A stretch of 64,000 nucleotides of DNA from Eublepharis macularius (taxonomy: Eukaryota; Chordata; Lepidosauria; Squamata; Eublepharidae): contig NC_072806.1 in the NCBI RefSeq assembly GCF_028583425.1, positions 32,596,001-32,660,000 on the forward strand, read 5' to 3'. Position numbers and translations under genes: made by a program. Positions 14,537 through 64,000 of the stretch are shown here, piece after piece (the first letter of the stretch is position 1; every line of letters begins with the position of its first letter). The notes beneath the pieces are model-generated. The model saw only the letters and a program-made list of their open reading frames with translations, was not told where the DNA came from and ran no database searches.

Positions 14537-15875
14537 CATATTTGTGCGTGTGTATGTGATGTGCCGTCAAGTCGCCTCTGACCTATGGCGACCCTATGAA
14601 TGAGAGACCTCCAAAACGTCCTATCATTAACAGACTTGCTCAGATCTTGCAAACTGGAGGACGTGGCTTCTTTTATTGAGTCAAGACATCTCATCTGAGG
14701 TCTTCCTCTTTTCCTACTGCCTTCCACTTTTCCTAGCATTGTCTTTTCCAGTGAGTCTTGTCTTCTCATGATGTGACCAAAGTACGATAGCCTCAGTTTT
14801 GTCATTTTAACTTCTAGGGAGAATCAGGTTTAATTTGATCCAGAACCCACTTTTTGGTCTTCACCATCCATGGTATCTGCAAAACTCTCCAACACCACAT
14901 TTCAAATGAATAAATTTTCTTACTGTCAGCTTTCACATCCGTATATAGTAATGGGGAATACCATAGTTTGGATTATCTTGATCCCCAGAGAGACATCTTT
15001 AAGGATCTTTTCTAGTTCCCTCATGGCTGCTCTTCCAAGTCTCAATCTTCTTCTGATTTCTTGGTTGCAGTCTCCCTTTTGGTTGATCATTGAGCCAAGG
15101 AATAGATAATCTTGAACAATTTCAATTTCCTCATTGTCAGCTTTAAAACTGTAATTCCTCAGTAGTCATTACTTTTGTGTTCTTGACTGATGTTCGGCTG
15201 TAAACCTGCTTTGGCGCTTTCTCCTTTAACCTTCAGTAGTTGATTCAAATCTTCATTCTTATGCCAGTAATGTGTCATCTGTATATCTCAAATTATTAAC
15301 GTTCCACCAATGTTCACTCCACCTTCTTCTAGATCTAATCCAACTTTCCTTATATGTTCTGCATAGAGGTTGAACAGGAAGGGAAATAATATGCATCCTT
15401 GTCTGACACCTTTGCCAATTGGAAACCATTCTGTTTCCTCATATTCTGCCCTAACAGTAGTCTCTTGTCCAGAGTACAGGTTGCGCATCAGAACAATCAG
15501 ATGTTATGGCTTTTAACACTATCCATAGCTTTTCATGATCCACACAGTCAAAAGCTGTAATCTATAAAACACAGGCTGATTTTCTACTGGAATTCCATGG
15601 TATTTTCCATTAACCATCATAAATTTGCAATGTGATCTCTAGTGCCTCTTCCTTTTTGAACATCTGGCATTTCTCGTTCCATGTATGGTAAGTCTTTGCT
15701 GTAGAATTTTGAGCATCACTTTGCTTGCGTGGGAAATTAACACAATGATCCGATAGTTGCTGCACTCTTTGGCCTCCTCCTTTTTTGGAATTGGTATGTA
15801 AGACTGAGCGTTTCCAGTCTGTGGGCCGTTGTTTTCCATATTTGTTGACAGATTCAGATGTACACATACTCAGGA
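14537..15875 (-). mobile_element. BovB-like RTE LINE, 5'-truncated and decayed
   Basis: On the minus strand it codes for broken pieces of an RTE reverse transcriptase: YSGQETTVRAEYEETEWFPI with GVRQGC, and a C-terminal part with LSYFGHIMRRQDSLEKTMLG and GSRKRGRPQMRCLDSIKEAT, a signature of BovB-type elements. The 3' end (low coordinates) carries the RTE tail, complementary to tgatgtgccgtcaagtcgcc. The frames are scattered over several reading frames, so it is dead. A second copy of the same family lies at about 41.29-45.46 kb. Confidence 0.85.
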
Positions 15876-19788: not shown

Positions 19789-20307
19789 TTAAAAAAGTTT
19801 TAAGTGCCCAGAAACTTTATCCACCATTTCAGCTGGTCCCGGTCCGATGCCTAGGACAGTCCGGCATCCTGGGGCGATCTGAGTGCGCCCTGCGTCCTGG
19901 ATTAAGCTGACCGTCAGGCCCAGTAATTTGGCCTCTGTCAGGAGCTGCAGAAGAGTTTCCTCATCGGGAGCCTTCAGGACTACCTTTGGCTGGCCGCAAT
20001 ATTCCCACTGTTTAAGGAGTTCAGGGTTTCGGCGCTGAACTTGCTTGTAGGATGAAACGGCAGCATGGGAGCACTGGGCGGCCACTTTGCCCTTGCCCAT
20101 CTTCAGATCGTTCCGAACGACAATCACCATCTTGAATTCCCCACCTTCACCCATAATGCTGGCCTCGTTGCCCAGTTCATTGGCAACCGCAGTCATTCTG
20201 GCTTTGGATGGGCGGAAGAGCCGTCCGCGAATGCCCCAGCCGAGGCACACCCCACAGGCCACTCCGGCAATTATGCTGAAGAGCCCAGGCTTAGAAAGGT
20301 AATCCAT
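19789..20307 (-). CDS. PTRH2: Peptidyl-tRNA hydrolase 2, mitochondrial (BIT1)
   Basis: A 172-residue product, against 179 in human. It cleaves the ester bond of peptidyl-tRNAs that drop off ribosomes, and in mammals it is anchored at the mitochondrial outer surface and also linked to anoikis (BIT1). Residues about 8-27 ([20 protein letters not shown]) form the N-terminal membrane anchor. A variable linker follows, then the Pth2 fold from about residue 57 with [50 protein letters not shown] and the [11 protein letters not shown] motif, all highly conserved. The lysine-rich KMGKGK stretch and the QDAGRTQ loop line the known active site. The chosen Met matches human Met8 (MDYLSKP against MEYLAHP). 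The 14 nt before it back to the acceptor are open and would read SRSA, like human SKSLV, so translation may begin in the upstream exon. Confidence 0.96.
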
Positions 20308-21171: not shown

Positions 21172-21432
21172 CAGGGCTTTTTTTCTGGGAAAAGAGGTGG
21201 TGGAACTCAGTGGGTTGCCCTCGGAGAAAATGGTCACATGGCCGGTGGCCCCGCCCCCTGATCTCCAGACAGAGGGGAGTTTAGATTGCCCTATGCGCCG
21301 CTTGGCGGCACATAGGGCAATCTAAACTCCCCTCTGTCTGGAGATCAGGGGGCGGGGCCACCAGCCCATGTGACCATTTTCAAGAGGTTCCGGAACTCCG
21401 TTCCCCCGCGTTCCCCCTGAAAAAAAGCCCTG
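21172..21432. mobile_element. hAT MITE, copy 1 (261 bp)
   Basis: Begins cagggctttttttctgggaa and ends ctgaaaaaaagccctg: terminal inverted repeats of about 15 bp flanked by a perfect 8-bp duplication gtaataac (21164-21171 and 21433-21440). Eight-base duplications are the hAT hallmark. The interior is itself a long palindrome (gatctccagacagaggggag against its complement), so the element folds back almost end to end. Copies 2 and 3 are at 45006-45275 and 56474-56718. Confidence 0.9.
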
Positions 21433-22134: not shown

Positions 22135-22354
22135 TGCAGAGGAGTTAGCCGTGTTAGCAAAATCAAAAAGAGTCCAGTAGCACCTTTAAGACTAACCATT
22201 TTTATTGTAGCACAAGCTTTCGAGAATTAAGTTCTCTTTGTCAGATGCATGGTACAGAAACACCATGCATCTGACGAAGAGAACTTGATTCTGGAAAGCT
22301 TATGCTACAATAAAGTTGGTTAGTCTTAAAGGTGCTACTGGACTCTTTTTGATT
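22135..22354. mobile_element. Fold-back repeat, copy 1 (220 bp)
   Basis: Two arms in opposite orientation meet around 22255-22262: agagtccagtagcacctttaag at the left and its complement at the right, each arm continuing through cttatgctacaataa and tgcatctgacgaagagaac. A 12-bp duplication ctgtttgagaga flanks it (22123-22134, 22355-22366). The left end alone carries the extra gaggagttagccgtgttag piece. It belongs to the same family as 42881-43587 and 62980-63265. Confidence 0.8.
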
Positions 22355-23081
22355 CTGTTTGAGAGAGCGGCCAACCAGTTACTCCGGCAGAGCCAACAGC
22401 AGGGCACAGAGGCTGAAACCGCCCCCTGATGTTGCCGCTGGCACTCGTATTCAGAGGTTGACTGCCTCAGAATGTGGAGGTTCCTTTTGGTCACATGGCT
22501 AGTGGCCACTGTCACACCTGTCCTCCGTGTAGCTGTCTAAGCCTGTTTTGAAGGCATCTGTGGCTTTGGCCATGACCACATCCTAAGGACAAAAGGAAAG
22601 AGGCCTTTCCTTTGGTCTGTTCTGCATCTCCGGGACCTCAACTTCAAGGTACCTGACAAGCCTCAAGGCAAAAGGGGGGGGCTCTGAACCTGCGTCTCTC
22701 CAGCCCCTTACCCAACATTCCAGCCATTCCAGAATGGGTACAGATGGCTGGATTTCGCTTTTTAAACCCCTGCTCTAAAGGGCTTTGAAGGCCCACCTTG
22801 TCGGGATCGCGTCTCCTCTTGCTGGGCCTCCTCCACCCCCACAGCGCCTCTCCCTCACAGCAACCGTCCCCTCACACCGGCGAGGCTCCCTCGTGGCTGA
22901 GGCGGGATTCGATCCGGGCGCCTTTCCTGCCCCGCCACTTCTCCCTCCCCCCGCGTCCCTCCGGGTCTCCCACCTCATTCGCACGCCTCACTCGAGGCCG
23001 GAACCCCAGCCCGCCTCTTCTCACCGCCTCCCATCTGCAGCCACGACAAGTTCCGGCCGGCCGCGTCACAAACGCTCCCAA

Positions 23082-23086
23082 CCAAT
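23082..23086 (+). promoter_or_regulatory. CCAAT box
   Basis: ccaatcagcgcg in the CpG island, a standard NF-Y type site. Confidence 0.6.
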
Positions 23087-23146
23087 CAGCGCGCAATCCT
23101 CCCGGCCGCGTTACCTCACCTCACCTCTCGCCAAGACGCCTTTTCG

Positions 23147-23154
23147 TGACGTCA
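23147..23154. promoter_or_regulatory. CRE palindrome TGACGTCA
   Basis: Perfect cAMP-response element in cgtgacgtcacacacg, 13 nt upstream of a CCAAT box. Binding by CREB/ATF is inferred. Confidence 0.65.
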
Positions 23155-23166
23155 CACACGCCCTGT

Positions 23167-23171
23167 CCAAT
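23167..23171 (+). promoter_or_regulatory. CCAAT box
   Basis: gtccaatcagtgacgtgg; a half CRE (TGACG) follows directly. Confidence 0.6.
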
Positions 23172-23225
23172 CAGTGACGTGGCGTCGATTCACGCTCGCG
23201 GCTTACAGCGCGTGTCCCGAACCCG

Positions 23226-23233
23226 TGACGTCA
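23226..23233. promoter_or_regulatory. CRE palindrome TGACGTCA
   Basis: Second perfect CRE in cccgtgacgtcacggccaat, 79 nt after the first and 4 nt from a third CCAAT box (23237-23241). The paired CRE/CCAAT layout repeats. Confidence 0.65.
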
Positions 23234-23289
23234 CGGCCAATCCGGAGGGGCTCGGAGGGATAATCGCGTTGACGGGAGGGGGGAAAAAA

Positions 23290-23533
23290 AGCTGGAGCGG
23301 CCACGGAAGTGAGGTAGAGGAGTGGCAATGCGCTCGGGTGAGAAAAGCCGCTTCCGGCAATGGGCGGAGCCGGGCTCGGAGCCCGCCTTCCACTTCCGGG
23401 TTGGCCCGAGCCCAGGCGGCGAGAGCGGCAGGCGGGGAAGGAGGCAGCGGCGCCCCAGAAGCCGGACGGAGACGCCGCGCACAGCAGCCGCGGCCGCCGG
23501 AGGGAGGCGGAGGACGGCGGGAAGGAGGCGCAA
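23290..23533 (+). other. VMP1: Probable VMP1 first (non-coding) exon
   Basis: Candidate 5' UTR exon ending at gcgcaa|gtgagg (donor GT at 23534-23535). It is placed by the promoter, the conserved gene structure (start codon in exon 2 after a long first intron) and one good donor. The 5' limit is a guess and other donors in the island are possible. Confidence 0.4.
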
Positions 23534-25116
23534 GTGAGGAGGGGAACGGCGGGCGGAGGGGAACGGCGGCGCGGGTGGCGGCTGCCCCCTCAGGGCGAGT
23601 GCGGAGGCAGCCCCTCGGGTCCCCCTCAGGGGATTCGGGGAGGGGCCTCCCCAGGAGCCCCTGGCAGGGGCCGGAGGGGCCGAGCCGGCTCTGCGTCCCG
23701 GTCCGCCTCCCGGCTCGACGGGGGCTCCTTTTCCCTCTGGGGGCCCCCGCCTGCTCTGGCGCCCCGCGTGCGTCGCCTTGCCGGGAATAGCGTCGGTGTG
23801 GGGACGCCGGCTGGAGCCTGACAGGGGGGCGAGGGAGACGCGCAGGGCCGCTGCCCCGAGGAGCTCGCAGTCTCGGAGCCGGCGGCTCTGTGGGCACCGC
23901 AGACGCGGGCAAACGGCCGCCTGCCAGCAAACGCATCTGTGTCTGCGGAGGCTACCCAGCAAGGGGTTCCTCATCCAGATGTCGGGGGGATGATCTGACT
24001 CCGCTGCCCTGAGCCCCGGCTGTGGGGAAGGGAGGATTTGCCCAGGTGGTCGTGGGCGTCGCTGAAAACCGCCTGCCCGACGGCTGGCTGAAGAAGGGAG
24101 CTGTGGCTCGCCAAAGCTCAGACCCGAGCGCAGGTTTTGCTAGTCTTATGGGCGCTCCTGGGCTCTCGGCGGTGAGGGACAGAAGCCTCGTCCCGTCGGC
24201 TTGGGAATCTGAGCCCGATGCGCCGTAGAAGGAAGCCAGCCTAGTCTGTGTTTTAGGGTCACTTTAATCTTGGGTATCGTGAGACACCCTGTGCCCGAGT
24301 GAATAGCTGCCAGTGGTTGCGTTGTAGTGGTAGAGAACATGTGTCTGCCCGAATTTCCTCCGTGCCCCTGAAAATGATCCCAGCCTTAGTAAAGAGGGTC
24401 ATTTCCTTGCAATTCTAAAGCTGCTGAGTATGTGGTGGAGATGCTGATCTCCTTCTCCCTGGTTTTCCCCCTGCTTTCTACCAAATTGAATGGAAAGTTC
24501 AGATTGTCCCTGGATTTACCTCCCAGCAGTGCGCTCCCATTGCCCAAGAATATGAGAATGCCAATTTCCCTTTGGGAATCACTAGAGTTAGTCTGGTGGA
24601 AGAGGGAAATGAGGGTTTTGATATTTTGTTGCAAAACAGCATTGCAGCTTCTCCAGACTGGAGGCCTAGGAGTGTTCAGTGATGTTGAGCTGCATTTTCT
24701 TACAGTTCGTCCCTATACCAGCTCCCCCCTGTTCTAAAGGTCAGTTTGATGTAACCTGCGTCTTTCCTCCTCTGCCCTTTCTCCTTCACACCTGAGTGAG
24801 ATTCTTTCTCTTTTCTCCCTGCGCTTGCTCCCTCTAGTGTACAAATTCAAAATAGTTTATACCAAGACTATAATTCTAAGCCCGCTTTCTAAGAATTACG
24901 TCCTATTTGGTTGAACTTGTCAGTAAAATGCGTTCAAAAGGGTTGCAGTACTATTTCGGGGGTTGTGCTTGCTAGGTCACTGCAGAGTCAGGTGCCCAAG
25001 ACCCAAACACTTTGTCTCTTGGTAGCTCAGCTTCATTGCACCCTATAGATAATGTAGTTTTAAAAGACATTGCCTGCATGTAGCACACTTGAGCTGTGGG
25101 CAAGTTTGGCATAATG

Positions 25117-42880: not shown

Positions 42881-43587
42881 AATCAAAATCAAAAAGAGTC
42901 CAGTAGCACCTTTAAGACTAACCAATTTTATTGTAGCATAAGCTTTCGAGAATCACGTTCTCTTCATCAGATGCATGGAGGGCCAACAGAAACTGGTCAA
43001 ATATAGAGGGGGGGAGGAGGAGAGGGGGGATGTAAACAACTCCTTTGATATGGAGATGCAGACAGCTCCTTTTGGTGTGGGGATCAGTTTGCTTGTGTAA
43101 AGATTCAAAGGAGTTTGCCCTGTTAGTTTGTAGTAGCAAAATCAAAAAGAGTTCAGCAGCACTGCAGCACAAGCCCTTGATACCCACAGTCCTCCCTGCC
43201 AGATGCATCTGACAAAGAGAACCGTCAGATGCATCTGGCGGGGAGGACTGTGGTTATTGAGGACTTGTGCTGCTGGACTCTTTTTGATTTTGCTACTACA
43301 GACTAACGCAGCAAACTCCTTTGAATCTTTACACAAGCAAACTGATCCCCACACCAAAAGGAGCTGTCTGCATCTCCATATCAAAGGAGTTGTTTACATC
43401 CCCCTCTCCTCCTCCCCCCCTCTCCTCCTCTATATTTGGCCAGTTTCCTTCTGCCCTCCATGCATCTGATGAAGAGAACGTGATTCTCGAAAGCTTATGC
43501 TACAATAAAATTGGTTAGTCTTAAAGGTGCTACTGGACTCTTTTTGATTTTGCTACTACAGACTAACACGGCTAACTCCTCTGGATC
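42881..43587. mobile_element. Fold-back repeat, copy 2 (707 bp inverted dimer)
   Basis: Two arms of about 320 bp in opposite orientation meet near 43205-43220. A perfect 13-bp duplication tattatcaaggaa flanks it (42868-42880, 43588-43600). Each arm holds an outer unit (gtccagtagcacctttaaga ... agatgcatgga) and an inner unit starting the same way (agttcagcagcac), so it is an inverted pair of dimers. The right arm alone ends with ctactacagactaacacggc and about 20 nt more. It is non-coding and inserted in the RTE copy. Confidence 0.85.
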
Positions 43588-43600
43588 TATTATCAAGGAA

Positions 43601-45005
43601 GAATGTGCAAAAACTATTCCTCTAGCCGAAAGAGAGGAGAAACCTAAATGAATGACTGAGGAAACTCTTAAAATTGCTAAAGAGACAGGAAGCAAAAAGT
43701 GCCAGAAATAGAGTCAAAATTTTAAATGCAGCTTTTCAGTGACTTGCATGCAGAGACAAATAAATCTATTATAATAACGAGTGCAAAGAAATAAAAGACA
43801 AAAACAAAGTTGGAACAAGAGATCTGTTCCACAAGATCTGGGAAATCAAAGGAAAATTCAAGCAACCGTTCTGGATGCTGAAAGAGTAACATGAAAATAC
43901 AGTATCTGGTCAGGACAAAATAAAGGAAAGATGTGAAAATACCCCGAAGAACTGTACAGAAGAGATGGAAAGACGGCAGATACCTTTGAAAAAGAATCTT
44001 TTGATGAAGAACCAGAAATCTTAGAAAGTGAAGTAAAAGCTGCACTCAAAGCAATTGGGAGAAACAAAGCACCTGACGTAGATGGAATACCAATAGAGCT
44101 ATTTCAAGCTACAGAAAATCTTAACAAGAATCCATCAAAATCTTAACAAGAATCTTTCAACAAATATGGAAAACAAAACAATAGCCAACATATTGGAAAC
44201 GCTCAGTCTACATTCCAATTCCAAGAAAAGGGGATGCCAAAGAGTGCAGAAGCTATCAGACAATCATGTTAATTTCCCATGCGAACAAAGTGTGACGCTC
44301 AAAATTCTACAGCAAAGACTCTTACCGAATGTTAAATGAGAAATGCCAGGTGTTGAAGCAGGATTCAGAAAAGGAAGAGGCACTAGAGAGCATATTGCAA
44401 ATCACCCTGTGTTTTATGGATTACAGCAAAGCTTTTGATTATGTGGATCATGAAAAGCTATGAATAGTGCTAAAAGAAATGGGGGTGCTACAGCATCTGG
44501 TTGTTCCGATGCGCAACCTGTACTCTGGACAAGAGGCTACTGTTAGGACAGAATGGTTTCCAATTGGCAAGGATGCATATTATCTCCCTACCCGTTCAAA
44601 CTCTCTGCAGAGCATGTCATAAGGAAAGCTGGACTAGATCTAGAAGAAGGTGGAGTGAAAATTGGTGGAAGAAACATTAATAATTTGAGACATGCAGATG
44701 ACATTACTGGCAAAAAATAGTGGAGACTTGAATCGACTTACTGATGAAGGTTAAAGGAGAAAGCGCCAAAGCAGGATTACATCTGAATATCAAGATGACT
44801 ACTGAGGAATTACACAGTTTTAAAGTTGACAATGAGGAAATTGAAATTGTTCAAGATTATCTATTCCTTGGCTCAATCATCAACCCAATGGGAGACAGCA
44901 ACCAAGAAATCAGAAGAAGATTGAGACTTGGAAGAGCAGCTGTGAGGGACTAGAAAAGATCCTTAAAGATGTCTCTCTGGGGACCACGATCAAGATAATC
45001 CAAAC
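43601..45005 (+). mobile_element. BovB-like RTE LINE, part 3 (reverse transcriptase)
   Basis: Broken + strand frames follow the RTE RT domain: a stretch near 44040-44100 like KAAIGRNKAPDVDGIPIELF, then a box near 44420 encoding YSKAFDYVDHEKL, later RNLYSGQEATVRTEWFPIG and the C-terminal TTEELHSFKVDNEEIEIVQD and YLFLGSIINPMGDSNQEIRR. Numerous stops and frame breaks. Confidence 0.85.
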
Positions 45006-45283: not shown

Positions 45284-45462
45284 TATGGTATTCCCCGTTA
45301 CTAAGGATGTGAAAGTTGGACAATGAAGAAAACTGGCAGGAAAAAAATGGATTCATTTGAAATGTGGTGCTGGAAGAGAGTTTTGCTGGTACATTTTGGT
45401 GGTCTTTTATTCATAGGGTTGCCATAGATTAGAACCGACTTGACGACTCATAACACACAGAA
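45284..45462 (+). mobile_element. BovB-like RTE LINE, part 4 (3' end)
   Basis: Continues the same RTE copy after the MITE and ends with gttgccatagattagaaccg then acttgacgactcataacac, the RTE 3' tail. The same tail in better state is at 14537-14600 on the other strand. Confidence 0.8.
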
Positions 45463-45855
45463 TTTAAAAGTGTAAATGTTTTAGTTTTCTATAAGAAAAA
45501 TTGCAAATATACTCAAGACAGTATACTCAACAGTCAAAAGTTACAGATTTCTGTACCCTATTCTGCCTTAGCACATGTTTCTTAATTTTTGCCACCTGAT
45601 AGTTAGGAAAAATAAACATTGATATTAAAAACCAATTATGTAGTAAACAAAAGAAAGTAGACTCACTCTCATATGTAGGGCTAACAGCATCTTCAGATAT
45701 TGAAAACCTATTAACCTTTATACTGTTGAAAACAGTGAAGTTTTGGGGGGCGTGGCGTCGGCACCGAGAGGAATGGACGCCTAAAGCCAGAGCTCCGGTT
45801 CAATTCCACCCCTAAACCCCGATAAGCACATCAAAAACGTTCTACACAACTTAGT

Positions 45856-46842
45856 ATGAAGGGTAAGCAAGATCTTACTGCAAAGAAGCCCAACTCTAAG
45901 GCGGCGAAAAATTTGCAGAGCTATTTCCCAGCTTCGCAAGCAGAAGGTACGGAGGGGGAGATAGAGGGAACGAGTGCAAACATGGCGGCCGCGATGATGA
46001 ATGCTGAGGCGCGAAAAACTCAGACGGTTTCCTATGACCCAGCACTAAAAGCCCTACTGCTAGACATCGAATCGAGCTTTTCTAACAAAATCTCCCATCT
46101 AATGGAACCACTATCACAACAATTAACTGACCTTAAGATAGTGATGGACTCTGTGGTCGCTAAATCGGATCAGGCTCTTACCCAGACTGCGGCTTTAAGG
46201 GAGGACGTCCACTCCCTACAATCAGAACAAGATCGTGTCCACTATAAGATCCTGGACATGGAGATTCAGCTGCGGGGTGCTAATTTGAAGTTTAGGGGGA
46301 TAGAGGAAAATGTGGCCGTGGATGCAGACCTGGCCGTTTTTTTGGCGGGCTGGCTGATGACGGAGCTAAAGCTGGAGGAAACCCATGCATTGACTATATT
46401 CAAAGCTTATCGAGTGGGCCCCAGAAATCCAGATAAGAGGCGGGGACCTAGAGATGTGGTGGCCGTCTTTGCCGACTGGAGGCTGAGGAAAAAAACGCTT
46501 GAGGTGGCGAGGGCGCGAAAATTCCTCTCCTACAATGGAGCGCGAATCAGCGTCTATACAGACCTACCGGCCGAGATTTTGGAGCGACGACGACAACTCC
46601 GACAGATAACTGAGGAACTCAGAAATGCCCAAATAGAATACAGCTGGACCCGGTATTCTGCATTGAGAGTCTCGTTGAAGGGCATACAGCACCCGATCTC
46701 TACTCCCGAGGAAGGCCTCCGGTTTCTACGTGAGCTAGGCATAGAGGTCGCCATGGAGACGGAGGCCAGCTCTCAGAAAAGAAAACGACCGCTGCCCATG
46801 TCTCCTCAGAAGAATAATAAAATACCGGTCCGGGACACTTGA
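45856..46842 (+). CDS. L1 ORF1 protein (RNA-binding chaperone)
   Basis: 328 residues, typical length for L1 ORF1p. The N-terminal 60 residues are basic and disordered. A coiled coil covers about residues 65-145 (SNKISHLMEPLSQQLTDLKI ... ALREDVHSLQSEQDRVHYKI), expected to trimerise. An RRM-like domain begins about residue 150 (LRGANLKFRGIEENVAVDAD) and runs into FKAYRVGPRN and PRDVVAVFADWRLRKKTLEV. The C-terminal domain has LPAEILERRRQLRQITEELR, a close match to the L1 (Transposase_22) pattern. The tail KRKRPLPMSPQKNNK is basic. In known L1s this protein coats the LINE RNA. The start Met follows acttagt and is the first ATG in the element. Confidence 0.93.
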   Translation: MKGKQDLTAKKPNSKAAKNLQSYFPASQAEGTEGEIEGTSANMAAAMMNAEARKTQTVSYDPALKALLLDIESSFSNKISHLMEPLSQQLTDLKIVMDSVVAKSDQALTQTAALREDVHSLQSEQDRVHYKILDMEIQLRGANLKFRGIEENVAVDADLAVFLAGWLMTELKLEETHALTIFKAYRVGPRNPDKRRGPRDVVAVFADWRLRKKTLEVARARKFLSYNGARISVYTDLPAEILERRRQLRQITEELRNAQIEYSWTRYSALRVSLKGIQHPISTPEEGLRFLRELGIEVAMETEASSQKRKRPLPMSPQKNNKIPVRDT

Positions 46843-48438
46843 AGCTCTGACTGGTAGGACTTATGACCAGAATATGTTGTGTTGGAACGTCCCAATCTTA
46901 CTTAATTTACTCGTGGGTAGGGGTGGTTGGGGTGGGATTGAAGGGATTGCTTCTTTATTAGCCCCTTACACAAACAGTCCTCCGTTCTGTTTATTTACAG
47001 CAACCTCGTTGCAGAGATTTCTCGCGAGGCTGCTGAGGACTGTGTAGCACCTTAGTTTCTATTTCTCTATTGGAGACGGTTGCTTTAGAGAAATATTAGA
47101 TCTTGTGATAATTATATAAATACACTCTTCAAGTTCTTCCTGGAAAATAAGTAACAAGACGCTGAGTGCTCGTTGTATATAGTTTAGTACGGTAGTTAAG
47201 GCAAGTTAGTGATTTAATATTAAAAGGTGCGCCCCTTGGGTTGATCCACTTCTACATAAAGTAATAAAGAGAAATCTTAATTAATTACTACCTTCTTGAT
47301 TGGCATATCAGATACTCGGAACTCCTTGCAGCTTGATCCGACGTTAGTAAAGGGGGGGAGGTAGCGAAGCAATCTATACACCAGTCACAACTTGCAGTTT
47401 TACCCACTGACTATCTGCTTGCTCCTTACTGCATTGGGCAGAGGTAAGGGCAAGAATTAATTAATCATTTATTACAAGTCTGGGGACAGTTGGTTTAAAG
47501 GAGTATAAATAGTGAGTTAATTGAATATATCTACACTTTCAAGCTTTTACCAAAAACAACATTAAAGTGCTGCGTGCTTATTGTATATAACTTTGTTAAG
47601 GTAGTTAGGCAAATTAGTAATTTAGTGCTAGGAGGTGCATCCATCAATTCAATCTACTCCTCCATAAGGTAACAAACAGACATCTTAATTAATTGATTCT
47701 TGATTGATTAGCAAATTGTACACTTGGAATTAATTGCAGTTTGATCCATCCATAATCAGAGAGAGAAGGTAACATAGCAAACCACAAGCAACTTAGTGAT
47801 TTAAGGTTAAGAGGTACATCTATTAATTTGGTCTACTCCTACATACGGTAATAATAAGAAATTTTAATTAATTGGTACTTACTTGATTGTAACTTGATTA
47901 TCATATACCTGGAATTAATTGCTGTTTGATCCATCCATAATCGGAGAGGGGAGGTAGCATAGCAGACTACAAGCTTATCACAACTGTCAGTTTTGTCCAC
48001 TGACAGTCTGCTTGCTTCCCATCATATTTTGAAAGGGTAAGGGCGGAAGTCGATTAATTATTTATTGAAAATTACCAACATAGTAGATTAACTTACGCTT
48101 GCTATACATTTCATTGCATTTGTGTTTTGTGATACGATTTCTCGTTCCTTTCCAATGAATTTGTTGCATGATTGCCTTCAAAGTGATGAAATTTGATTGC
48201 TTAATTAATTAACACCAGACAGTGATTTATTTACCTGAATCTTATTGCATTTACGTATTGACCCTTTCTTTGGTGCTTAGATCATTTCAGCCATCTCATT
48301 CATATCTATTATAAACTACTGAGGCAAGAGCCCTTACACGCCTGCTAGCGGTCTCTATACTTGCACTTTTGGTTCTGCAATACCAGTACATTTCACTTCA
48401 AAGACCAATTCTGATACTCTACTTTTACCCATTCTATA
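46843..48438 (+). other. L1 inter-ORF spacer with internal repeats
   Basis: 1,596 nt without a long ORF, AT-rich, between ORF1 and ORF2 of the L1. Three diverged copies of one block begin near 47205, 47612 and 47792 (ttag-gattta, then cta-ctcctacata-ggtaa, tcttaattaatt, ttgatccatccataatc-gagag). Copies 1 and 3 also share ccactgac(t/a)(a/g)tctgcttgct. Mammalian L1 spacers are tens of nucleotides. Its role (internal promoter, ORF2 start or structural RNA) is unknown. Confidence 0.85.
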
Positions 48439-51400
48439 ATGGCCTCACAACCACATGTCCATATTGTCTCGCAAAATGTGAGGGGTTTAAACAACCTGGT
48501 GAAGAGAAGGAGAGTTCTGACCAGCCTGGCGAAACTAAATGTAGATGTAGCCCTGATCCAAGAAACACACCTCCATGCATCCTATGAGGCGGAGCTTAAG
48601 GCCCCATGGATAAAATTGCAATTCCACGCAAAAGGCTCCTCCAAATCCCGCGGGGTGGCAATCTTACTAGCAAACAGGGTCCAATTTGAACACAAAGCCA
48701 CCCTACGGGACCCTAGAGGCAGGTTTTTATTCATAAAGGGGCACTTCAATGGACAATTGCTTACACTGGCATCTGTCTATGCGCCCAACACGCAGCAACT
48801 GGAGTTCACGGAAGAAATCCTCCGAAAATTAGAGGCATTCCAGGAGGGATCAGTAATTGTGGGAGGGGACTTCAATTATGTAGCACACTATGACCTAGAT
48901 AAATCCTCATTTCCCCGCAACAATGCACCTCGAGTGCCAAGAAGGCCTAAGAACCCTAATCGTGACACACAGATGCTCACGCTATTTACTCGGTTCCACT
49001 TAGTGGACATATGGAGGGAGATGAACAAACTGGCCAAAGATTACACATACTACTCCCCACGCCATGACGTATACACCAGGATCGACTATATCCTGGTGTC
49101 CCCAGATTTGAGAGACAGAGTACTACTCTCCAGCATAGGAGACATAAGCTATTCGGATCATGCTTGGGTAACGTGCAAATTATCCCTAGATAGGCCCTAC
49201 GAAAGGGAGAGGCATTGGACGTTCCAGAAAAACCTCATACTTAATGAGAACAATGTCCTACAAATTGAACGAGATATCACCCAATATCTCAAAGATAACC
49301 AAACAGGCACGACATCCTCCCAAACGGTGTGGGACGCTCTTAAGGCGGTACTAAGGGGACAACTGATCGCTCTCTCTGCCTCTCTAAATAAGAAGAAAAA
49401 ACTCCAAAAACAACTCATAATGGATAAAATCCACCAATTGGAACGCTTACACAAGGATAGAGGCAGCAAAAAAACCTATAAACAGCTGCTCCATGAGCGC
49501 AAAGCTCTGGAGTCACTTGAAACGTCCCAAATTCAAAAGAACATCTTATATTTAAAGCAAAAGTACTGGAACCACTCTCCTAGGACCCTACGTTATCTGT
49601 CCTGGAAGGTCAAGGAGAAGAGAATAAATAGGCACGTCAGACTCATAAAAAACGACAAGGGACAAACGTTCACTAAATCTCCCGAAATATTGGATGTATT
49701 TACAAAATTTTACACAAATTTATATACTTCCTCCAGGCCAGATAAAATGTCAATTAGGAACTATCTGTCAACCCATAAGAACATTAAAAAACTGGCAGCG
49801 GAACATAGCCAATTAATGGATACCCCAATCACCGCCGCAGAACTGCTGGAATCCATTAAGAATTTAAAGAGCAATAAGGCATCTGGGCCGGATGGCTATC
49901 CGGCCGAATTCTATAAAAAGTTTGCTTTGGTATTAATCCCGCCCCTGTTATCGGCCTGTAATGAGGTGCATAAATTGGGGACCTTACCTGGAACCTGGGC
50001 TGAGGCAGTCATCGCCATGATCCCCAAGGAAGGCAAAGACCCCTCTAACCCCGGTTCGTATAGACCGATTTCTTTGCTGAATGTCGATTATAAAATCTTT
50101 ACCTCAATATATGCACGACGCTTCAATTCTTTCATTGGAAATTATATTTGTACAGATCAGATAGGCTTTATCCCCAATAGGGACATCTCCGACAACATTT
50201 ATAAGGCGCTGAACATTTTAACATTCAGTAGACACAGCAAATTACAAACCACACTCCTCTCCTTGGATGTCGAAAAAGCTTTTGACACCCTGGAGGTCCC
50301 GTACCTGCAGATGCTCCTTTCCCACATGAAGTTCGGCCCCAACTTCCTACAAACAATTAAAGCGATATACGCAGGCCCCAAGGCAAGAATCAAACTTAAT
50401 GACTTAGCGTCCGATCCCTTCACTCTACACCGAGGCACGCGCCAAGGGTGTCCCCTTTCCCCCATCCTTTTCGCCCTCGCGATAGAGCCCTTAGCAGAGG
50501 AGATAAGAACCAATGAAGGGATTCGAGGCATTGAAATAGACAAACGTACTTACAAAATATGCTTATTCGCTGATGACATCTTGCTGTTTCTTACGTGCCC
50601 ACTTGTTTCCCTAAAGGCTCTGGCAATTGTTCTTGCTCACTTTGGGTGTATATCGGGGTTGAGGATAAACCAAGCCAAATCCACCATCCTATCAGTGAAT
50701 CTCCCAGAGGAGACGTGTAACGACATAAAACGGCAATTTAAATACCAGTGGGCCAAATCACACCTCCGATATCTGGGCATAAATATCCCTCCCAACCCAG
50801 CCCAGCTACTCCAGGTAAACCACGTCCAAAAGATGAAAGAAATCAAACACCTCCTGCTCAAATGGAACAAGCAAAACCTGGCATGGTATGAAAGATACCA
50901 TTTGATAAAATCCTTCGTCCTCCCAAAATTGACATTTTTGTATAGAACAATTCCAATTGAAATCCCTAGCAAAATTCTGAGCCAATGGCAGACGGCATTA
51001 AATCGATTCTTGTGGCAGAATAAGCGCCCTAGGATTGCCTTCAAAGTTTTGTGCGCCCCTAAAACAGCAGGGGGCTTTAACTACCCAAATATAGGGCTCT
51101 ATTCTGATGCAGCCAGATTGACAGACATCCTCCAGATATTACTCCCCTCTGGACACTCTGATTGGATAAACATAGTGGGCACCTTTTCCCAGCCAAAAAC
51201 GTTGCGAGAGACTTTCTGGTCTACCCCAAGTTTGCGTCCTCCCTCCATATATCAAAATATGTTCCTTGCTGCACTGCTGAAGCTTTGGGACAGACATAAA
51301 CATTCCCTTCTCCCGGCCATATCCCGCTTTTCAGTGCTCACATCACATAAGGGCATGCCTCGCCAGCATAATATAACCGCACTGCGCTCCTGGGATGACC

Positions 51401-52308
51401 TGCGGGACTTGAGGTTGTTGGACATAGCCACCAAGGATGGTATCATAAGCAGAGTAGACTTGAACAACAACCTGGGCAGGGAAGTCCCCTGGTTTTTCTA
51501 CCTGCAACTGCGATATCTTCTGCACGAATTGAATATAAAAAGCGTAATGACTAAACCACCAACTAAATTTGAAACACTTCTGGACTCCCACTCATTTAAC
51601 CGTAAAGGTCTCCTGTCAAGACTATATCTCACCCTGCTTGATACCAAACCCCTAAACACTGAAGCGCTGCTCAATAAATGGCAACAGGACTGTGGGATAG
51701 AACTCACACGAGAAGATAGAGAGCATGTTTGGCACTCTGCATTGCTTAACTCCCCTGTCACCAATGTGCGCCTCCAAACCTATAAGATTATCCACAGGTG
51801 GTACCTTACTCCCCAAAAGCTGGCGAAAATATATCCCAGCAGGTCTCCACTCTGCTGGAAAAAATGCGGGGAGCAGGGTACGTTCCTACACTGCTGGTGG
51901 GAGTGTAAAAGTGTTGCTGCTTTCTGGAAGGCGGTTCTCCAGGAAATTTCCCGTATCACGACTTATGTGATACCCCCAAGCCCGGGACTTGTCTTCTTGG
52001 ATCTTTGGGGAGACCTAGATATTCCCCATCTGCGGAAGGCATTGGTCAGAACTCTCCTAGCAGCTGCAAAGGCTGCAATTGCACTCAGGTGGAAATCGCG
52101 ATTCCCTCCCACTCTTGACATATGGTATAGAGTGGTGTGGGACCACCTTATGATGGAAAAGATCACAGACAGAATTCGAGCATTGCATAACCCCTCCAAA
52201 CCTACACAATTTTACGCACAATGGTACCCTTTCCTGGAATTTTTATCTCAGAATGAATGGCTGATCTCTAAGCTACCTCACTACGCGATTATAAACCCCG
52301 AAATTTGA
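48439..52308 (+). CDS. L1 ORF2 protein (endonuclease-reverse transcriptase)
   Basis: 1,289 residues, the usual L1 size. The APE-type endonuclease covers residues about 1-245: VSQNVRGLNN, DVALIQETHL (catalytic Glu), VYAPN, VGGDFNYV, IDYILVS and ISYSDHAWV (catalytic Asp-His). The reverse transcriptase runs from about 470 to 770: KASGPDGYPAEFYKKF, PGSYRPISLLNVDYKI, LSLDVEKAFDTLE, RGTRQGCPLSPILFALAIEP and CLFADDILLF (FADD at about 710-713). The C-terminal Cys-rich motif C-x3-C-x7-H-x4-C is exact at C1139, C1143, H1151 and C1156. It nicks target DNA and copies its own RNA by target-primed reverse transcription. No damage is visible. The start is the first Met of the frame (MASQPHVHIV). Confidence 0.96.
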   Translation: MASQPHVHIVSQNVRGLNNLVKRRRVLTSLAKLNVDVALIQETHLHASYEAELKAPWIKLQFHAKGSSKSRGVAILLANRVQFEHKATLRDPRGRFLFIKGHFNGQLLTLASVYAPNTQQLEFTEEILRKLEAFQEGSVIVGGDFNYVAHYDLDKSSFPRNNAPRVPRRPKNPNRDTQMLTLFTRFHLVDIWREMNKLAKDYTYYSPRHDVYTRIDYILVSPDLRDRVLLSSIGDISYSDHAWVTCKLSLDRPYERERHWTFQKNLILNENNVLQIERDITQYLKDNQTGTTSSQTVWDALKAVLRGQLIALSASLNKKKKLQKQLIMDKIHQLERLHKDRGSKKTYKQLLHERKALESLETSQIQKNILYLKQKYWNHSPRTLRYLSWKVKEKRINRHVRLIKNDKGQTFTKSPEILDVFTKFYTNLYTSSRPDKMSIRNYLSTHKNIKKLAAEHSQLMDTPITAAELLESIKNLKSNKASGPDGYPAEFYKKFALVLIPPLLSACNEVHKLGTLPGTWAEAVIAMIPKEGKDPSNPGSYRPISLLNVDYKIFTSIYARRFNSFIGNYICTDQIGFIPNRDISDNIYKALNILTFSRHSKLQTTLLSLDVEKAFDTLEVPYLQMLLSHMKFGPNFLQTIKAIYAGPKARIKLNDLASDPFTLHRGTRQGCPLSPILFALAIEPLAEEIRTNEGIRGIEIDKRTYKICLFADDILLFLTCPLVSLKALAIVLAHFGCISGLRINQAKSTILSVNLPEETCNDIKRQFKYQWAKSHLRYLGINIPPNPAQLLQVNHVQKMKEIKHLLLKWNKQNLAWYERYHLIKSFVLPKLTFLYRTIPIEIPSKILSQWQTALNRFLWQNKRPRIAFKVLCAPKTAGGFNYPNIGLYSDAARLTDILQILLPSGHSDWINIVGTFSQPKTLRETFWSTPSLRPPSIYQNMFLAALLKLWDRHKHSLLPAISRFSVLTSHKGMPRQHNITALRSWDDLRDLRLLDIATKDGIISRVDLNNNLGREVPWFFYLQLRYLLHELNIKSVMTKPPTKFETLLDSHSFNRKGLLSRLYLTLLDTKPLNTEALLNKWQQDCGIELTREDREHVWHSALLNSPVTNVRLQTYKIIHRWYLTPQKLAKIYPSRSPLCWKKCGEQGTFLHCWWECKSVAAFWKAVLQEISRITTYVIPPSPGLVFLDLWGDLDIPHLRKALVRTLLAAAKAAIALRWKSRFPPTLDIWYRVVWDHLMMEKITDRIRALHNPSKPTQFYAQWYPFLEFLSQNEWLISKLPHYAIINPEI

Positions 52309-52549
52309 AATATGGATTTACTCTGCGACATAATGGATGTGCCTGTACATGATTCTCCCGATGCTGTTATAATTAGCTTGCTTAACACTGTATTAGACTC
52401 CTGTTGATTATGTATAATATTTGCACACTTGAATATTGCCAACTGTTAGTGTTTTGATGTTTATGTATTGTTGTATCCGAACATTGTTACGTATGATGTC
52501 ATCTTTTTTCTACGCATTTACTGTTGATCTTGTTACTTGTTACACTTTC

Positions 52550-52555
52550 AATAAA
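52550..52555 (+). terminator. L1 poly(A) signal
   Basis: AATAAA 15 nt before the A tail of the LINE, which starts at 52570. Confidence 0.85.
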
Positions 52556-52639
52556 ATTTTTTTGAAACTAAAAAAAAAAAAAAAAAAAAAAAACAGTGAA
52601 GTTTTAAATGTATTATCATTAAACACACAGTATTTGGTG

Positions 52640-54638: not shown

Positions 54639-54714
54639 ATGGCAGAAAATGGAACAGATTGTGACCAGAGGCGCGTAAGAATGAGCAAAGAACAGCACAA
54701 TGGGAACTTTACAG
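54639..54714 (+). CDS. VMP1: Vacuole membrane protein 1, first coding exon
   Basis: VMP1 is a multi-pass ER protein with lipid scramblase activity in the DedA/VTT superfamily, needed for autophagosome formation and ER-organelle contacts. The exon follows ttggtgttag (acceptor ending 54612), has 26 nt of 5' UTR, and then reads [20 protein letters not shown] and NGNFT, against MAENGKNCDQRRVAMNKEHH in human. It ends acag|gtaagt after one base of the next codon. This is the cytosolic N-terminal tail. The gene runs beyond the window; TUBD1 and MIR21 neighbours, known elsewhere, are not reached. Confidence 0.96.
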
Positions 54715-55181
54715 GTAAGTCGATGCAGAGGCCTTTCCTTTTTGACAGGGTGCTTGCAGTGCATGTAGATGCTGTGTCTTTACTGCGAAAGCATGCTAGG
54801 CTCTGCACACTTAGAGGCAGTGTCCAGGGCTTGTATCCAAAAAGCCACACGCATCTGGCACTCTTGGGTTATCAGCAGTTGAGTGTCTGCTGTTCCTGAT
54901 GGTACCTGCCCCCCACCCAAAAGTTTTGCCCCAGTTCTTCCTTCTCATTGCAGCCTTCTGTGCCCTGTGGCATTTAGCCCCGGGGGCTCCCATTATCTCC
55001 ACTTGTATCCTATTGGGGTGGTCACAGAAGGCTGCAGTGCAGAGGCCAATGAGAAGAGATATCCATTGCCACATGCACCTTCAGCTTGCACAATGGTAGA
55101 ATCCTGCCATTGCACCGTAAACCTCATTTAGAATGAGTGACCAGCTAAGCAAAGGTTGTGTGAACAGTGACTCCCCAGGGC

Positions 55182-56473: not shown

Positions 56474-56718
56474 CAGGGCTTTTTTTCAGCTGGAATGTGG
56501 TGGAGTGGAGTTCCGGCACCTCTTGAAAATGGTCACATGGCTGGTGGCCCCGCCCCCTGATCTCCAGACAGAGGGGAGTTTAGATTCAGACAGAGGGGAG
56601 TTAGATCTAAACTCCCCTCTGTCTGGAAATCGGGGGCGGGGCCACCAGCCATGTGACCATTTTCTACCAGGGCAACCCACTGAGTTCCACCACCTCTTTT
56701 CCCAGAAAAAAAGCCCTG
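56474..56718. mobile_element. hAT MITE, copy 3 (245 bp)
   Basis: Begins cagggctttttttcagctgg, ends cagaaaaaaagccctg, and is flanked by the perfect 8-bp duplication tataaaac (56466-56473, 56719-56726). A short internal duplication (cagacagaggggagtt twice) lies at the centre. Closest to copy 1. Confidence 0.9.
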
Positions 56719-62979: not shown

Positions 62980-63208
62980 CTTGCATCTGACGAAGAGAGC
63001 TGTAGTTCTCGAAAGCTGACGATGCATCTGACGAAGAGAGCTGTGGTTCTTGAAAGCTGACAATGCATCTGATGAAGAGAGCTGTGGTTCTCGAAAGCTG
63101 GCGATGCATCTGACGAAGAGAGCTGTGGTTCTCAAAAGCTGACGATGCATCTGACGAAGAGAGCTGTGGTTCTCAAAAGCTGACGAAGAGAGCTGTGGTT
63201 CTCGAAAG
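62980..63208 (+). repeat. 41-bp minisatellite, about 6 units
   Basis: Unit beginning atgcatctgacgaagagagc and continuing tgtggttctcgaaagctgac at 63022, 63063, 63104 and 63145 (exact 41-nt spacing), with partial units before and a shortened last unit. It is an expansion of the hairpin part of the fold-back family and is followed by the normal family end (63209-63265). Confidence 0.92.

Positions 63209-63304: not shown

Positions 63305-64000
<696 letters not shown>

Follow-up and report, generated by a model that had tools for sequence, protein, structure and literature searches.

How the second protein of an L1 (long interspersed element 1, LINE-1) is made is an unsettled question, and it is raised in an unusual form by the 64,000-nucleotide (nt) stretch of Eublepharis macularius DNA analyzed here, referred to in the following as the window. 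Within the gene VMP1 the window carries an intact, full-length L1 in which the two open reading frames (ORFs) are separated by 1596 nt. Neither this spacer (46843–48438) nor the 5' untranslated region (5'UTR) of only 111 nt had been mentioned in an earlier note on the sequence, which described the element as young and possibly mobile. The spacer is the unusual part of an otherwise ordinary young L1: it is strongly depleted of AUG on the sense strand and ends in a cluster of short upstream ORFs (uORFs) close to ORF2. We propose, from the sequence, that the ORF2 protein is made by ribosomes that would scan this long, AUG-poor and weakly folded spacer, with reinitiation gated by the short uORFs, and we put the probability of this reading at about 0.5. 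The features on which the argument turns are the following.

45745..52593, + strand: full-length L1 element, delimited by its ORFs, duplication, homology and shared 5' end
45745..45855, + strand: 5'UTR, 111 nt, with a 5' start common to 20 fetched copies within 0–2 nt
45856..46842, + strand: ORF1, 328 amino acids (aa), of the L1 ORF1 protein (ORF1p) type by translation and by kinship to PF02994-matching ORF1s
46843..48438, + strand: inter-ORF spacer, 1596 nt, 36.8% GC
46877..48154, + strand: ATG desert, a 1281-nt run between the ATGs at 46874 and 48155
47071..48066, + strand: three imperfect direct repeats, ATG-free (~47071–47480, 47481–47789 and 47788–48066)
48155..48212, + strand: uORF cassette with ATGs at 48155, 48168 and 48186, forming two overlapping short uORFs
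48439..52308, + strand: ORF2, 1289 aa, with endonuclease, reverse transcriptase and C-terminal Cys motif

ATG depletion and the uORF cassette

The window spacer contains five ATGs, against 27.8 from a first-order expectation, while the other five permutations of A, T and G number 27–35, and CAT, the same triplet on the opposite strand, 32. When the spacer was shuffled 2000 times with dinucleotides preserved, no shuffle had five ATGs or fewer (the minimum was 13) and none had an ATG-free run as long as 1281 nt (the longest was 617). The aligned parts of the three direct repeats are 70–78% identical. The same five ATGs are kept in all 28 spacers of the family that were compared (the window, 20 full copies and 7 more, diverged by up to ~4%). 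Their 198 variants created a single ATG where 10.4 were expected and 15 CATs where 8.6 were expected, on the assumption of independent variants, which these are not wholly. In control sequences leading to no ORF, ATG was not clearly depleted: the tails of four ORF1-only elements hold 6–8 (7.6–9.3 expected), the window 3'UTR 10 (8.8), the left flank 37 (37.6) and the right flank 22 (28.2).

The comparison was extended to sister lineages through an exact 5'-end pattern, which occurs 71 times in the genome (control, 0) and picks up the window family mixed with its sisters. Thirty-eight of these 5' ends adjoin a scored spacer and 33 do not. Thirty-one of the 33 were compared around the ORF1 end, where 24 were sisters at 73–80% identity, five were 84–97% identical to the window element and two had no match; the remaining two are an ordinary copy (L049) and a chimera (L048) described below. 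From the clusters, eight representatives were chosen by eye: the sisters A, B, C, D, E, F and H, and the 84% one, I. Together with the window element (W) they make up the nine lineages cited below, with one copy per sister lineage. In two of them, B (L058 + L084) and D (L051 + L085), the start of ORF2 is 94–95% identical to the window family but the end of ORF1 only 77–80%, so that these lineages look recombined between ORF1 and ORF2.

Spacer length varies from 961 to 1596 nt across the nine lineages, some pairs being just 59–70% identical, and in all nine the longest ATG-free run (529–1281 nt) beats every one of 500 shuffles. Observed and expected ATG counts are 10/18 (A), 6/28 (B), 6/27 (C), 6/28 (D), 12/25 (E), 8/20 (F), 12/19 (H), 8/19.5 (I) and 5/28 (W); counts as low as these occurred in six of the 500 shuffles each for A and H, and in none for the other lineages. 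Summed, the lineages hold 73 ATGs against 213 expected, and 192 CATs against 218, which is slightly low too. Counted by zone, there are 25 ATGs (13.2 expected) in the 75 nt that follow ORF1 and none (11.5 expected) from 75 to 155 nt; from the stop to the second of two acceptor-like sequences (~155 nt; see below) the count is 25 against 24.8. From there to −300 of ORF2 there are 21 against 144.2, in the cassette zone from −300 to −240 there are 25 against 9.3, and in the last 240 nt ahead of ORF2 a single ATG against 28.7.

The cassette itself is conserved in layout. Its ATGs lie at −284, −271 and −253 from ORF2 in the window, and in eight of the nine lineages three ATGs are spaced 13 and 18 nt apart, the first of them 282–291 nt upstream of the ORF2 ATG, despite the 1.7-fold variation in spacer length. 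Translated in six lineages (W, A, B, D, E and F), the triplet opens two overlapping frames of 6–14 codons. Since the ends of these uORFs vary between lineages, it is the ATG positions, rather than the peptides, that look conserved. A pyrimidine-rich tract lies ahead of the triplet in all nine lineages, and ORF2 starts in the context ATA-ATG-G.

Routes to ORF2

We envisage that small ribosomal subunits would remain on the RNA after the end of ORF1 without initiator tRNA, ignoring AUGs within the first ~75 nt as long as it is absent. Once it is regained further on, any later spacer AUG would divert the subunits, and such AUGs would hence have been selected out. Ribosomes would either translate or bypass the short uORF pair ~284 nt upstream of ORF2, and the ~240 nt beyond the cassette, nearly free of AUG, would then allow initiation at the ORF2 AUG. 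Scanning through the spacer would explain why AUG is depleted on one strand and only in the stretch before ORF2. The AUGs tolerated just after the ORF1 stop fit reinitiation, in which the subunits at first lack initiator tRNA, as set out in a passage of PMC5972666. More broadly, we see about an even chance that a group of vertebrate L1 lineages evolved a 1–1.6 kb, mostly AUG-free inter-ORF track, ending in a conserved uORF gate at a near-fixed distance from ORF2, which would adjust ORF2 levels through scanning and reinitiation, perhaps on an mRNA with ORF1 spliced out.

Several observations weigh against this proposal. Ahead of the triplet zone there are 4 ATGs in lineage A, 7 in E and 5 in H, some of those in A and E lying within an apparent duplicate of the cassette; each of B, C, D, F and I has one ATG there. 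Lineage I has an ATG directly ahead of the ORF2 ATG, contrary to a strict rule, and C retains just one triplet ATG, at −255. As noted, for A and H 6 of 500 shuffles had totals as low as the observed ones. The lineage counts are not independent because the lineages share ancestry (A and H are 96% identical, B and D 92%, A and E 90%), and the eight sister lineages, represented by one copy each, may have decayed. Reinitiation after an ORF of 328 codons is normally inefficient. According to a passage of PMC4072516, a megabat L1 retrotransposed less with its long intergenic region, and less still when the AUGs of that region were changed, so that freedom from AUGs is no plain advantage there. Finally, the conservation of a donor and an acceptor points rather to splicing. 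These splice signals are as follows.

45860..45868, + strand: 5' splice-site-like AGG/GTAAGC at the start of ORF1, inside the 14-nt block ATGAAGGGTAAGCA
46851..46859, + strand: 5' splice site CTG/GTAGGA, 11 nt past the end of ORF1, homologous to the donor that the chimera used
46985..47001, + strand: 3' splice-site-like sequence TTCTGTTTATTTACAG/C, scoring highest in the element, with an AG conserved in 9/9 lineages

The main rival, a possibility that we hold to be real but doubtful, is a spliced subgenomic ORF2 mRNA, joined from the donor AUGAAGG/GUAAGC at 45862 to an acceptor ~130–160 nt after ORF1 (47001 in W). ORF1 would then be an intron, its AUG would open a short uORF (17 codons in 7/9 lineages), and the remaining spacer would be an AUG-poor leader scanned to ORF2. 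The donor block ATGAAGGGTAAGCA is invariant in the eight lineages covered there (D left out) and is the sole invariant run of 10 nt or more in the first ~260 nt besides the 5' end by which the lineages were recruited. By splice-matrix scores, this donor ranks third in the window element. Against it, 39 sites score at least as high in 128 kb; 10 of the 26 amino-acid-constant codons in all eight lineages (Met excluded) are invariant, and the synonymous constancy of the donor is thus just suggestive. Two acceptor-like sequences are conserved downstream of ORF1, at ~130 and ~157 nt; in the eight lineages holding both, their distance is 27 nt and they are in frame. The first, TTTGCCCTTTCCACAG or close variants of it, is the top-ranked acceptor in the spacers of 7/9 lineages and second in I; the window copy has lost its AG and keeps the second, at 47001. 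ATG is undepleted up to the second acceptor and depleted beyond it, as a spliced leader would predict, whereas at the finer scale depletion starts at ~75 nt, ahead of the acceptors, and an intron ending near 130–160 nt fits this a little less well. Splicing of the family's RNA followed by retrotransposition is shown by the chimera, which used a different donor (46853), and the junction patterns searched in the genome gave no spliced copy of the kind proposed here.

The remaining alternatives carry less weight with us. We regard as improbable an internal promoter in the spacer that would make a separate ORF2 RNA, with the repeats as promoter units and AUGs avoided in its leader. Mouse L1 monomers act as promoter units, the spacer contains three diverged repeats, and with a 5'UTR of just 111 nt promoter elements could lie elsewhere; however, the depletion spans nearly the whole spacer, so that the start would have to lie close after ORF1, and an RNA starting in the spacer would lose ORF1 on copying. 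In addition, 21 elements share the 5' end, a count that includes 20 copies fetched as full-length by design and is silent on truncated ones. A little less probable again is an internal ribosome entry site (IRES) in the spacer or in its final ~300 nt, with the pyrimidine tract and the AUG cluster. An IRES is reported for a mouse L1 in a passage of PMC4072516, and the tract in nine lineages and the near-fixed position of the triplet would suit one. Against this, spacer RNA pieces fold no better than shuffles (17/20 and 20/20 shuffles were at least as stable) and the consensus fold of the final 300 nt is weak across the nine lineages (−5.48 kcal/mol, with two-sided change in 4 of 26 predicted pairs), although folding alone cannot exclude an IRES; an IRES would also leave the AUG desert of ~530–1280 nt upstream unexplained. 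Least credible, and already disfavoured, is a neutral passenger spacer that would have grown by tandem duplication of a short ATG-poor seed and simply retained its lack of ATG. The spacer does contain old duplications, the lineages share ancestry, and the spacer evolves at about the ORF2 third-position rate (41/1596 against 36/1290 shared variants). Yet the repeat units of the window copy have diverged by 22–30% without an ATG, the lineages have diverged by up to 41% with few, gains within the family are 1 against 10.4 expected, and the depletion is strand-specific and unseen in the 3'UTR, the left flank and the ORF1-only tails.

The chimera, at C7:36598094 (L048 + L097), consists of the L1 5'UTR, ORF1 and 11 nt joined to occludin last-exon sequence (PF07303, 4.3e-11; occludin 1wpa, 3.2e-18), 3'UTR sequence included, and ends in a poly(A) tail with a 14-bp duplication. 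As far as its sequence tells, this retrotransposed, spliced L1–occludin copy shows that a donor of the window L1 family has worked in vivo. Copies spliced at the ORF1-start donor were searched for with a pattern running through the donor and followed by A, C or T, which had no match in the genome (its stem matches 8/8 lineages and 19/20 copies). The junction to the first acceptor had no match with up to three mismatches; that to the second had 10, all with three mismatches, of which the one examined was not L1-like. One class of human SpIREs (spliced integrated retrotransposed elements) amounts to ~1.8% of full-length L1 events (passage in PMC5860796), so that the absence of spliced copies among ~70 5' ends is weak evidence. 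The SpIREs described there are likewise L1 RNA that was spliced and then retrotransposed, whereas the spliced copy found here is an L1–occludin chimera and no ORF1-less copy was found. Two other candidates were rejected by eye: a conserved spacer intron from the post-ORF1 donor, whose sequence the sisters other than I do not keep, and an in-frame ORF1–ORF2 fusion from the ORF1-start donor, for which there is no AG in the short open stretch before ORF2.

The L1 family and its relatives

By its ORF2 protein the element belongs with L1. The ORF2 protein (ORF2p) aligns to human L1 ORF2p (8uw3) over residues 3–1240 (E 8e-168) and matches the profiles PF03372 (1.6e-16) and PF00078 (3.4e-35), while R2-type enzymes match far more weakly, at 5.8e-18 at best. 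With an apurinic-type endonuclease and a reverse transcriptase, it is closest to L1 by sequence similarity. The ORF1p matches mouse and human ORF1p weakly (E 0.0024–0.0031) and a profile search with E up to 1 did not match it to PF02994; five PF02994-matching ORF1s of the same genome align to it at 34–42% identity. The element has a poly(A) tail and target duplications that are A-rich and of variable length, as in the L1 clade: duplications of 10–18 bp were present in 18 of the 19 other copies with a 3' end found, and 16/19, the window copy included, start with AA.

The element resembles mammalian LINE-1 in being dicistronic, with an ORF1p plus an ORF2p that has endonuclease, reverse transcriptase and Cys motif, and in its poly(A) tail and A-rich target duplications. 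It differs in its 1596-nt spacer (63 nt in human L1), its 111-nt 5'UTR, and the AUG desert with a conserved uORF cassette. Passages of PMC4072516 give inter-ORF spacers of 18–580 nt (median 63) across 31 mammalian species, and the spacer of this recently active family is nearly three times the longest of these; a passage of PMC5972666 gives the human value and proposes unconventional termination–reinitiation for mammalian ORF2. The nearest parallel in PMC4072516 is lineage 1 of megabat L1, in which a long intergenic region likewise persisted in an active family, though at 445 nt rather than 1596, a persistence left unexplained in the passage concerned. There, AUG removal lowered activity, whereas in the window element AUGs are naturally rare outside the conserved cluster. 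We found no description of an AUG-depleted L1 spacer in the open-licence PMC literature, searched by title and start of abstract; one may be in print. AUG depletion together with uORFs at a fixed distance is a signature that points to scanning, and it makes the translation of L1 ORF2 testable.

Two further kinds of element were seen in this genome. One other L1 lineage (L031, L033) has practically no spacer, its ORF2 similarity (from residue 9) starting ~15 nt after ORF1. The ORF1-only elements L030, L032, L034, L035, L036 and L040 are ~1.65 kb long and mutually 91–97% identical, some keeping ORF1 frames of 300 or more codons open. In the five that were aligned (L030, L032, L034, L035 and L036), the initial ~53 nt are an 80–83% match to the L1 5'UTR, and L034 and L035 sit within L1 ORF2-like sequence, with target duplications. 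These elements, as distinct from the window L1, resemble the HAL1 (half-L1) elements of mammals, which are non-autonomous and have an L1-like 5' end.

The age of the insertion was judged from related copies in a single assembly (2.24 Gb, 72 contigs). Of 121 candidate spacers, 40 were scored, and all 40 were 95–100% identical over nearly all 1596 nt. The window copy and the 20 next best by spacer score, fetched at full length, make up 21 elements, of which 17 have both ORFs complete and open (L010, L020, L022 and L027 are damaged). The spacers of nine of the 20 best copies (L009–L017) are within 0.25% of that of the window copy, which in this group carries two private substitutions in 6,453 bases. 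At an assumed rate of 1e-9 substitutions per site and year, this would date the insertion to a few hundred thousand years ago. ORF2 variants fall at codon positions 1, 2 and 3 as 10/13/36 when shared and 27/29/38 as singletons; the third-position bias of the shared ones is what purifying selection on the source lineage would produce. Together with the near-identical intact copies, this pattern indicates that the family is currently or recently active. The earlier note had called the element very young and intact and had proposed a genome search for near-identical copies, whose absence it would have taken as an argument against recent activity; the search was run, and such copies are numerous.

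The insertion in VMP1

The other features of the element and its surroundings are listed here.

45729..45744, + strand: left target-site duplication AAAACAGTGAAGTTTT, by direct sequence comparison
52590..52605, + strand: right target-site duplication, by direct sequence comparison
45773..45784, + strand: 3-codon uORF ATGGACGCCTAA in the 5'UTR
52550..52555, + strand: AATAAA poly(A) signal
52570..52593, + strand: A run, 24 nt, the final 4 common to the duplication
54639..54722, + strand: first coding exon of VMP1, a 75% match to human VMP1 residues 1–28

Most of the earlier description of the insertion was borne out. Both ORFs are open over 328 and 1289 aa, the endonuclease, FADD and CWKKC...HCWWEC residues are legible in the ORF2 translation, and the 16-bp duplication AAAACAGTGAAGTTTT is exact at both ends. 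Full length, also claimed, agrees with the GC-rich 5' end shared by all 20 other fetched copies with an offset of 0–2 nt. The A tail reported as 24 nt stands as a run of that length, while the tail proper is 20 nt, because the final 4 A of the run are part of the right-hand duplication. Nearby repeats were indeed decayed, with ORF2p-like stretches at 44185–44705 and 15348–15488 matching ORF2p at 25–35%. Of 743 candidate matches to the left flank, 40 were scored; a single one was 100% identical and the other 39 were 72–82% identical, so that among those scored no empty allele was seen in this assembly. The 3-codon uORF of the 5'UTR keeps its ATG and a stop (TAA or TGA) in the 8/8 L1 lineages covered there; these were recruited by the 5'-end pattern, and the ATG and stop lie outside it. 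ORF1 too may therefore be reached after a minimal uORF.

The gene context was placed by tblastn with human VMP1 and PTRH2 protein sequences. VMP1 exons lie on the + strand at 54639, 56832, 61098 and 63356, in keeping with the sense orientation claimed for the L1, and PTRH2 lies on the − strand at 19792–20307. A CpG-island-like stretch at 23001–24500 was assigned to PTRH2/VMP1, and the L1 sits between it and the first VMP1 coding exon; the placement in intron 1 holds if the first VMP1 exon sits in the CpG island. We judge this finding, a young and intact L1 within an intron of VMP1, to be genuine but ordinary for a genome with active L1. Since a copy of the family used its own donor to splice to an exon of a host gene, a sense intronic copy may make fusion transcripts, and for VMP1 such splicing out of the L1 would be a more concrete risk than the effect of the poly(A) signal raised by the earlier note.

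Other repeats were noted in the window. Beside the L1 insertion, at 45460–45660, lies an older interspersed repeat, for which the genome offers 743 candidate places. A tandem array of five copies of a 41-bp unit (93% matches) lies inside VMP1 at 62982–63186, near the exon at 63356. An Rfam scan of the window gave no match at the gathering score. Self-complementary (palindromic) repeats resembling miniature inverted-repeat transposable elements occur at 42884–43552, 22158–22357, 21226–21381 and 56525–56664, the biggest being ~670 bp at 90%.

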